Source: Candidatus Poribacteria bacterium (GTDB lineage: Bacteria > Poribacteria > WGA-4E > WGA-3G). Taken from it: a stretch of DNA of 64,000 bases. The DNA is taken from the NCBI GenBank assembly GCA_028820635.1, contig JAPPIG010000071.1:92508-156507 (forward strand), in the 5' to 3' direction. Below, one piece after another: positions 58,927-61,459 of the stretch (positions are counted from its first letter, which is position 1; the number at the start of each line of letters is the position of its first letter). The translations under genes and the position numbers were made by a program. The notes beneath the pieces were generated by a model. It did not search any database. It saw only the letters and a list, made by a program, of their open reading frames with translations, and was not told where the DNA came from.

Positions 58927-59673
58927 CTAATACGTTGCCCTACCACCGCTTACATCGTAACACTGCCCTGTAACAAAACTCGCCTCATCTGACGCTAAAA
59001 AATTTACGACAGCAGCGACTTCCTCCGGTTTTCCAACGCGTCCCAACGGAATTTTACCTACCATATAGTCAATTGTTGACTGTGCCATACCCTCCAAAAT
59101 CGGTGTTCCAATTACTGCAGGCGATACAGCATTCACGCGGATGTTATAGTCCGTCACCTCTTTCGCAAGTGCCTTTGTCAAGCAGATAACCCCTGCTTTA
59201 GACACAGAATATGGAATAAGTGTTGGGTTGCCCTCTTTACCAGCAATTGAGGCGATATTCACTATTCTACCGTAATCCTGTGCAATCATCGTGTCAATAA
59301 CTGCCTTACAACAGAGGAAAACTCCCGTGAGATTTACGCCGATTACGGTATTCCAATCTGATTCTTCTAAATCCGTTAGTGGCAATGTACGCCCTGCGAT
59401 TCCAGCATTGTTGACGAGAATATCAACACGTCCGAATTCGGAGAGCACTTTGTCTACAGCAGCATTGACATCGGTAGACTGTGAAACATCCGCTTGAATT
59501 GGGAGTGCTTGTCGCCCAAGTTTTTCTATCTCCTTAGCAACAGCCTTGGCGGATGACAGGTTTAAATCCAGAATAGCAATATTAGCACCTGCATTCGCGA
59601 GTCTGATCGCAATCGCTTCACCGATGCCTTGTCCTGCGCCTGTCACAACTGCTATTTTATTGTTCAGGTTCAC
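58927..59673 (-). CDS. Short-chain dehydrogenase/reductase (FabG-like)
   Basis: This 248-residue classical SDR has NAD(P) motif VVTGAGQGIGEAIA, NNAG, catalytic Ser in NIASIAG and YSVSK (canonical YxxxK), with the ending FVTGQCYDVSGGRATY. It reduces or oxidises a carbonyl/alcohol; substrate unknown. It is unusual in this window for having an intact active site compared with the SDR at 39676. Its ATG (59673) overlaps the 3' end of the AhpD-like selenoprotein gene by 17 bp, so it is the third gene of that operon and translationally coupled. Confidence 0.93.
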   Translation of the reverse strand: MNLNNKIAVVTGAGQGIGEAIAIRLANAGANIAILDLNLSSAKAVAKEIEKLGRQALPIQADVSQSTDVNAAVDKVLSEFGRVDILVNNAGIAGRTLPLTDLEESDWNTVIGVNLTGVFLCCKAVIDTMIAQDYGRIVNIASIAGKEGNPTLIPYSVSKAGVICLTKALAKEVTDYNIRVNAVSPAVIGTPILEGMAQSTIDYMVGKIPLGRVGKPEEVAAVVNFLASDEASFVTGQCYDVSGGRATY

Positions 59674-60229
59674 TTGTCCACCTCTGTTCTAAAAAATCGT
59701 CTAATTCAATTCCAAATGCGTCTGCTATCCGATTGACATAACTGAAAAATCCTACAACCTCTACAATTGCGAACAATGCTTCATCAGTGAGGCCAAAATC
59801 ACGAAGTTTATTTAAATCTTCGGGGGTGACTGTATGCGCTGTCTCAGTTACCTTGACTGCAAATTCAAGGATAGCTTTCGTTACATCGTCAATATCAGCG
59901 GTTCGGAAATCTGAGGCAATTTGGGTTGCAATTCTTTTATCAGTGAGCTGATCACGCAACTCATCCGCATGCGCGACCGTTCAGTAGTGGCACTGATTTA
60001 CTTTTGAGACTACAGTAGCAATCATCTCGCGTTGTGCCCTACTTAGTGGTGAATCAGGGTCATGCATCACCACTTTGTAAAGCTCAACAAAAGCGCGCAT
60101 GCTTTTCGGACGAACACTAAATAACTTGACGATATTGTAAAGGTGACCAGCACGGGCAATTGCTGCGTCATATTCCTCTTTTACAATACCTGCCGCTTCT
60201 GCTTCGTCTACTGTTTGAATCCACGCCAT
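59657..60229 (-). CDS. AhpD-like peroxidase-related protein with in-frame TGA at the active-site Cys (putative selenoprotein)
   Basis: Read through one TGA (59981-59983), this is a 190-residue carboxymuconolactone/AhpD-fold protein of normal family length. The first half starts MAWIQTVDEAEAAGIVKEEYD and ends E68-x11-C80-H-Y. The TGA is codon 83, and T-V-A-H87 follows, giving E-x11-CxxU-x3-H, the exact AhpD active-site spacing with U in place of the activated second Cys. The remaining 107 codons keep the same frame to a stop at 59657 and read as the family's second half (VTEDLN-like helices, FFSYVNRIADAFGIELDDF). Alternatives: sequencing error or recent nonsense mutation. Overlaps the SDR gene by 17 bp; starts 3 bp after the repeat protein gene. 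Confidence 0.85.
59944..59963 (-). promoter_or_regulatory. Candidate bacterial SECIS hairpin
   Basis: Starting 17 nt after the TGA, UGAGUUG pairs with CAGCUCA (7 bp, one G-U) around the loop CGUGAU. The loop begins 24 nt after the TGA and has G among its first two bases, meeting the usual bacterial SECIS rules for spacing, small loop and G position. Confidence 0.65.
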
Positions 60230-60232
60230 TTC

Positions 60233-61459
60233 TTATTCACCAATGACAACACCGTATTCTCCAACAACAGCGCCTCTGTGTCCAGATTGATAATGCAGGT
60301 GCCTTTCACCAACAATGGGTTGTGAACTTTGCGCTTCAACAGAGCCGCGAATGTTCCCCATAGCGGCTTCGTCAACATCTGCACAACATCGCGGCTTGAT
60401 TCGCCGATGCAGCTGACGCCGGACTTCACCTTTTTTATTTCGGACAATAATGTTAACTAATGCATCATCTTCTCCGACATTAAGGAAACGGAACCAATCT
60501 CTTGCACCACTCGCTATTTCCGGGAAAAATAACCGAAGTCCAACATGTCCACCTTCTTCTGATGCCCCTGGCAGATCAATTACAGCAGTTCCACTGTGCA
60601 TGTGTCGTTCTGCCACAATCGGTTGATCACTACGTATCAATATGGAAGATTTGATTTTAATATCCTCCATCTTCGGAATCCAGCATTCAAAAGGATCCAA
60701 TTCTCGTTCCATCGTTGTCACCGGGTTTCCAGTTCCATCCTCATGTGCAATCATTGTTACCTCTGCCTGCTCTCTTCCAACATTGACAATAATTGCCCAG
60801 TCTCGCCATGCTGGGCCCACCTCTGGAAAGTATAGGGTTTTCGGTGCATCAGAGATAACTTGACCGTATTGTCCAACACAAGTTTTCCCACCTTGGTAAT
60901 GGAGATGCCGTTCACCAACAATGGGTTGCGTACTTTGTACCTCAAGCGTCCCTTGCACATTCCCCATCAAGCCTTCGGCAATATCCCAACAGCATAGTGG
61001 ATCAATTGCGTGGTGGCGTTGCCTGACAATATCGCCACGTCGGTTACGGACGATTATGTTTACTAACGCATCCGCCTCGCCAACGTTCAAAAATCGGAAC
61101 CAATCTAATGCTCCAGGAACCAATTCTGGAAAGAACAAACGCAAACCGACTGTTTCATATTCTTCCGCTGCACCTACGAAATCGAGGATATTTGTTTTAT
61201 TGTGCATGTGTCGTTCCGCCACAATCGGTTCATCCGCAGTAAGCTGCATTGAAGAATTCTGTTTAATTGCTTCTACGTTCGGTGTCCAACATTCAAATGG
61301 GGAAATCTCTTTTTCATCAGACCAAGTGGGTTGTCCGTTGGCAGCGTGTCTTGCTATTCCTGTCACACGGGTTTCTTCTGTACCTACATTGATTACTTGG
61401 ACCCAGTCTTCCCACTGAGGTCCTACTTCTGGAAAATATAACGTTGTTGCAAGTGCCAT
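60233..61459 (-). CDS. Novel four-repeat protein with ERHxH motifs
   Basis: The 408-residue protein consists of four repeats of about 101 residues, two A and two B types in an A-B-A-B order (202-residue tandem duplication). Each starts (L)xFPEVxPxxxDW..V/FLNVG and ends with ERHMH or ERHLH at 82-86, 183-187, 284-288 and 385-389. The A type carries PFECW, the B type a conserved CC (PLCCWD, PRCCAD) and GQYG/GEYG. No signal peptide. The beta-rich pattern suggests a sandwich with regular His sites that may bind metal. I do not recognise the family. AAGGAGA precedes the ATG; the AhpD-like gene starts 3 bp after its stop. Confidence 0.8.
   Translation of the reverse strand: MALATTLYFPEVGPQWEDWVQVINVGTEETRVTGIARHAANGQPTWSDEKEISPFECWTPNVEAIKQNSSMQLTADEPIVAERHMHNKTNILDFVGAAEEYETVGLRLFFPELVPGALDWFRFLNVGEADALVNIIVRNRRGDIVRQRHHAIDPLCCWDIAEGLMGNVQGTLEVQSTQPIVGERHLHYQGGKTCVGQYGQVISDAPKTLYFPEVGPAWRDWAIIVNVGREQAEVTMIAHEDGTGNPVTTMERELDPFECWIPKMEDIKIKSSILIRSDQPIVAERHMHSGTAVIDLPGASEEGGHVGLRLFFPEIASGARDWFRFLNVGEDDALVNIIVRNKKGEVRRQLHRRIKPRCCADVDEAAMGNIRGSVEAQSSQPIVGERHLHYQSGHRGAVVGEYGVVIGE

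Follow-up and report, generated by a model that had tools for sequence, protein, structure and literature searches.

The first AhpD-like selenoprotein with a CxxU motif was reported from the Sargasso Sea in 2005 by Zhang, Fomenko and Gladyshev (PMC1088965), and the Global Ocean Sampling study of 2008 included counts of AhpD-like 1 and 2 (PMC2398784). In Table 1 of a 2026 inventory, TIGR01926 'CxxU' is entered as an AhpD-like selenoprotein (PMC13188914). The first-pass annotation of the locus described here was thus right to state that AhpD-like CxxU proteins are known from marine metagenomes; they have already been catalogued. In M. tuberculosis AhpD the active site consists of Glu118, Cys130, His132, Cys133 and His137, arranged as a Glu-x11-Cys-x-x-Cys-x3-His proton-relay site (PMC3141380). 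The bacterial SECIS model describes an apical loop of 3-9 nt on an upper stem of 4-16 bp, a G within the first two loop positions that is mostly followed by G or U, a UGA-to-loop distance of 16-37 nt, and a minimum free energy of at most -7.5 kcal/mol (PMC13188914). SelA and SelB have been reported from most sponge symbiont bins (PMC5649159). We found no paper in the open-access literature that treats Poribacteria and a selenoprotein together.

Here we describe a locus in a 64,000-nucleotide stretch of contig JAPPIG010000071.1 of a Candidatus Poribacteria bacterium (assembly GCA_028820635.1), hereafter called the window. It carries a well-supported new member of the already known AhpD-like CxxU selenoprotein family. 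The gene shares with the known TIGR01926 CxxU selenoproteins the family model, the CxxU position and a predicted bacterial SECIS after the UGA, but differs from them in its occurrence in Poribacteria and in its fixed operon with a 408-aa protein and a short-chain dehydrogenase/reductase (SDR). The features of the locus are as follows.

59657..60229, minus strand: predicted AhpD-like/peroxidase-related selenoprotein gene, 190 aa plus stop, with selenocysteine (Sec) at residue 83 (from the translation with TGA as U and profile scores)
59981..59983, minus strand: in-frame TGA, Sec codon 83 (from the sequence; kept in homologues)
59945..59962, minus strand: bacterial-SECIS-like hairpin (from covariation, a synonymous-codon test, energies and pairing)
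60233..61459, minus strand: upstream gene of 408 aa, whose stop ends 3 nt before the selenoprotein ATG (conserved neighbour)
58927..59673, minus strand: downstream SDR gene (from a profile match; conserved neighbour)

The gene and its active site

The frame running from 60229 to 59657 on the minus strand is interrupted only once, by the TGA of codon 83 (TCA on the plus strand), and then stays open to a TAA. When TGA is translated as U, the product reads MAWIQTVDE...REMIATVVSKVNQCHY-U-TVAHADELRDQ... and the residues E68-x11-C80-H81-Y82-U83-x3-H87 extend across the TGA with the spacing of the AhpD active site. Ordinary ORF calling splits the gene into an 82-aa ORF and a 100-aa ORF that begins at an internal TTG. 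The first-pass annotation had described one gene cut by a single TGA, the E-x11-C-H-Y-U-x3-H pattern, a TGA lying on the second Cys of the CxxC motif (where homologues indeed have an aligned Cys) and a TTG as the upstream limit of the second half; each of these statements agreed exactly with our analysis, the TTG being the only other initiator that the ORF list gives for the second half. We scanned the whole window for TGA-split frames in which both parts have 70 codons or more and obtained eight cases; as judged by eye, a redox motif at the TGA was seen in one of the eight, the AhpD-like gene.

The read-through protein matched the TIGR01926 'peroxidase-related enzyme' model with 159.9 bits (cut-off 81.8) and the CMD domain PF02627 with 50.1 bits. 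Its best PDB relatives, both by sequence and by predicted fold, were the peroxidase-related proteins 3c1l, 2prr, 2pfx, 6k40 and 2oyo, which have the same helical fold and are about 31-36% identical in structural alignments, but have Cys instead of Sec. M. tuberculosis AhpD shares the proton-relay arrangement, whereas its identity to the window protein is 13-15%, its structural matches are weak, and the position of its His132 is occupied by Tyr82 here; P. aeruginosa PA0269 likewise has Tyr at this position. E68, C80, Y82, residue 83 and H87 were invariant in ten aligned members, including those from Planctomycetota. We also considered membership in AhpD_rel_CFYUT (NF041238, alkylhydroperoxidase-related (seleno)protein), which belongs to the same superfamily and has the CxYU motif. 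This assignment was rejected, as the score of 84.7 bits, obtained on the C-terminal half of the model and covering about half its length, is below the cut-off of 175.

Conservation of the TGA codon

We identified 21 homologous loci in the contig database, 19 from Poribacteria and two from Planctomycetota, and the codon was TGA in all of them. The nearest homologues came from metagenome-assembled genomes of Poribacteria (76-88% identity), and the Planctomycetota proteins were 40 and 49% identical to the window protein. In the phylum set of 85 genomes we found 43 loci, distributed over 42 genomes, that matched over the full length and contained a single internal stop, in every case TGA. A chance origin of the TGA is excluded because the same codon is TGA in the 21 homologues and the 43 phylum loci, although the two sets evidently share some assemblies and their counts are not additive. 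Cys is aligned with Sec83 in the solved relatives 3c1l and 2prr, and a paralogue from the same phylum (L085) has TGC (Cys) at the Sec codon, so that the Cys expected at position 83 of homologues was found in all three.

With the window as reference, the Ka/Ks values within the close family were about 0.02-0.07 upstream of the TGA (family f3 was left out here, since an indel before codon 83 shifts its codon register) and mostly 0.01-0.17 downstream of it where Ks was unsaturated. Purifying selection acts on both halves, and downstream of the TGA the selection as protein is strong.

Two further observations concern the distribution of related genes. A second TIGR01926-type gene, 34-37% identical, has a TGA at the CxYU position in five loci (L081, L082, L083, L084 and L086); it is followed by a different conserved hairpin, ACGCRG-AGUUY-CUGCGU, the loop of which starts 16 nt after the UGA. 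In addition, genome G018, which belongs to family f3 and has an f3-type gene, also contains, on a small contig (C8, locus L056), a gene of the f1 type whose neighbours are of that type too. This could be due to transfer or, more likely, to bin contamination.

The hairpin following the UGA

In the window, the UGA is followed by a hairpin with a 6-bp stem (GAGUUG/CAGCUC) and a loop of 6 nt, CGUGAU, the second position of which is G. The stem begins 18 nt and the loop 24 nt after the UGA. We aligned 28 distinct sequences, numbering them so that the U of the UGA is position 1, and observed that positions 22-27 and 34-39 were paired in 99.4% of the cells, compared with a shuffled mean of 85.2, while the covariation score was 0.433 versus 0.142; none of 500 shuffles reached either value. 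Double-sided changes occurred in three of the six stem pairs (24 cells in all), and pairing dropped to at most 44% when the partner arm was slid. The same hairpin was recovered by RNAalifold unprompted. The stems vary as units (GAGUUG/CAACUC, GAAUUG/CAAUUC and GACCUG/CAGGUC, with GACCUC/GAGGUC in Planctomycetota), and the loop has the form CG(U/G)G, its first three bases being CGU or CGG throughout the 28 aligned sequences. Synonymous codon choice also favours pairing: when the amino acids of ELQL-type stems were held fixed, full pairing arose in only about 4-5% of draws. In this test the rows are related, so that their values cannot be multiplied into a probability, and the stem codons are included in the codon table.

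The hairpin agrees with the bacterial SECIS model in loop size, stem length, loop G and UGA-to-loop distance (PMC13188914). As for the free energy, the window UGA together with the following 42 nt reaches -15.2 kcal/mol but in another shape, and the 27-nt hairpin alone gives -7.0 kcal/mol. The isolated hairpin energies range from -4 to -9.6 kcal/mol and are partly weaker than the limit of -7.5, although this limit perhaps applies to the element as a whole. In isolation, the window's own first 51 nt have a competing structure as their minimum-free-energy fold. Only when the first 12 nt were omitted did the mean pairing probability of the hairpin reach 0.77 in the window, with a median of 0.99 over the family. 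These 12 nt would presumably be covered by a ribosome that has paused at the UGA. The covariation within one gene family makes this predicted bacterial SECIS an unusually well-supported one.

Selenocysteine machinery and other readings of the TGA

The first-pass annotation had proposed to look for selA, selB, selC and selD in the genome, and all four were found in the same assembly, which thus holds the selenocysteine-decoding set: selA (531 bits), selB (349 bits), selD (370 bits, L097:2020-2964) and, immediately adjoining selB, the tRNA-Sec gene selC (78.1 bits) with the anticodon TCA (UCA). The selD gene has its own in-frame TGA in the motif KCAG-U-ASK (KCAGUASK), so that SelD of this genome is itself a predicted selenoprotein. 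SelD resembles the AhpD-like protein in having the in-frame TGA at an active-site Cys position, but it is an unrelated protein of a known selenoprotein class. Across the phylum, selB scored above the cut-off in 76 of the 85 genomes. Five carriers of the TGA gene are without a selB above this cut-off (G030, G033, G048, G059 and G060), which is uninformative because these genomes are 73-83% complete.

The designation of the gene as a probable selenoprotein is therefore supported by the fixed TGA, by selection, by the covarying hairpin and by the sel machinery. We consider it about 95% probable that the gene belongs to the TIGR01926 selenoproteins and that SelA, SelB, tRNA-Sec and SelD, together with the stem-loop, decode the UGA of codon 83 as Sec; that Sec is inserted in the cell is what we infer from this computational evidence.

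Other explanations of the TGA account for these observations less well. If the TGA disabled the gene, the downstream half would be that of a decaying pseudogene, and the lineage does contain cases of real loss: codons 94 and 166 are additional stops at one locus (L080), and genus g4 includes nine genomes that have no intact copy but apparently short remnants between the neighbours. However, the same TGA and no other stop is present at 43 loci in 42 genomes, the region downstream of it is under purifying selection, the hairpin covaries, and the true losses are deletions and not stops accumulating from the TGA onwards. Scattering of TGA codons among relatives, as expected of decay, was likewise not what we observed, since relatives keep the TGA at one codon. 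Because the single TGA is conserved and the downstream Ka/Ks is low, the pseudogene explanation is already refuted at the window locus, and we regard it as barely conceivable. An error in sequencing or assembly at 59981-59983 is a general possibility in metagenome assemblies and nothing more; independent assemblies of many related genomes share the same TGA, by which such an error is already refuted, and we give it practically no chance.

The UGA could also terminate translation deliberately after 82 residues, or the locus could encode two proteins, the second half being made from the TTG of codon 91, which lies 7 codons after the TGA and within the conserved stem. However, this TTG is not conserved, being CTC, CTG or CTA in Planctomycetota and family f3, and the family match spans the TGA, which moreover coincides with the catalytic Cys; we find both deliberate termination and two separate products very improbable. 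Finally, the UGA might be read as some other amino acid through a recoded code or a suppressor tRNA, as the frame is open whatever residue is placed there. The presence of tRNA-Sec(UCA), selA, selB and selD argues against this, as do the redox Cys position, the covarying SECIS-like hairpin that follows and the fact that the genome has a further TGA gene in selD, which encodes a classical selenoprotein. The likelihood of such a reading is, in our opinion, minute, and Sec at codon 83 is by far the better explanation.

Operon context

Family f1, the close family, has a fixed gene order: the 408-aa gene is followed by the selenoprotein gene and then by the SDR gene. The distance from the 408-aa gene to the selenoprotein gene is mostly 1-4 nt, and the SDR gene overlaps the end of the latter or starts a few nt beyond it. 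In the window, the SDR gene begins at a GTG, preceded by GAGGTGG, and shares its first 17 nt with the end of the selenoprotein gene.

Within family f1, conservation of the 408-aa protein is 75-96%, and by eye the protein appears to consist of about four repeats. No Pfam match was obtained up to an E value of 5, and when the PDB was searched with a profile, the single match was at chance level (E 0.38). Its structural model is beta-rich and of low confidence (mean pLDDT 55.6), too weak for a fold search. The protein is present as a single copy here and has relatives in 77 of the 85 phylum genomes, many of them without the selenoprotein; it is a phylum-typical protein matching no known family. 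The suggestion that the selenoprotein gene forms an operon with a novel partner therefore holds in part: the neighbour is conserved and has no Pfam match, but it also occurs in genomes that have no AhpD gene and is thus not dependent on that gene.

Loss of the gene in related genomes

In the five genomes of genus g1 that were examined and have no selenoprotein (L102-L106), the SDR gene directly follows the 408-aa gene. In genus g4, the nine genomes without an intact gene have a short sequence between the same neighbours, which in most of them is recognisable as a remnant. These remnants have several different junctions; in one of them (L108), 14 N-terminal codons are joined in frame to the C-terminal end. 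The C-terminal remnant often retains a purine-rich stretch ahead of the SDR start, and this may explain why it survives. Apparent in-place deletions with different junctions and with both neighbours conserved were observed at L089, L090, L091, L107-L110, L112 and L116. No Sec-to-Cys replacement was seen in this orthologous group. Since the neighbours are kept where the gene has been deleted, the selenoprotein is an accessory to a core two-gene unit and is lost by deletion.

Locus L080 (genome G023) has kept the Sec TGA and the hairpin, with the stop at codon 94 being a TAG that falls in the 3' arm of the hairpin; the paired base has changed too, giving A-U for G-C. L080 is apparently a recent pseudogene.

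Discussion

By analogy with the established chemistry of AhpD, Sec83 would stand where the CxxC motif has its second Cys (Cys133 of the M. tuberculosis enzyme). Its partner would be Cys80, and the putative proton relay would consist of Glu68, Tyr82 and His87. Sec83 would make the attack on the peroxide, leaving Cys80 to resolve the intermediate, so that a peroxide or another small oxidant would most likely be reduced via a selenenic acid and then a Cys80-Sec83 selenylsulfide. The peroxidase activity is predicted by homology, and the catalytic chemistry and the substrate are putative.

Because the start of the SDR gene and its likely ribosome-binding site lie inside the AhpD coding sequence, Sec insertion at codon 83 could set the ribosome flow to the SDR gene; selenium supply would then tune SDR production through translational coupling, and the three operon products would belong to one redox pathway. 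We consider this proposal distinctly unlikely.

What is new here is the fixed operon of family f1 and the in-place deletion of the gene in relatives that have kept both neighbours. As ordinary ORF calling splits the gene, the TGA, the hairpin and the operon can serve as markers that permit its correct annotation in dozens of genomes. Poribacteria are predicted to encode TIGR01926-type selenoproteins, and the locus illustrates the loss of a selenoprotein: the gene is deleted in place while the conserved operon genes on either side remain, and no Sec-to-Cys replacement was seen in this orthologous group.
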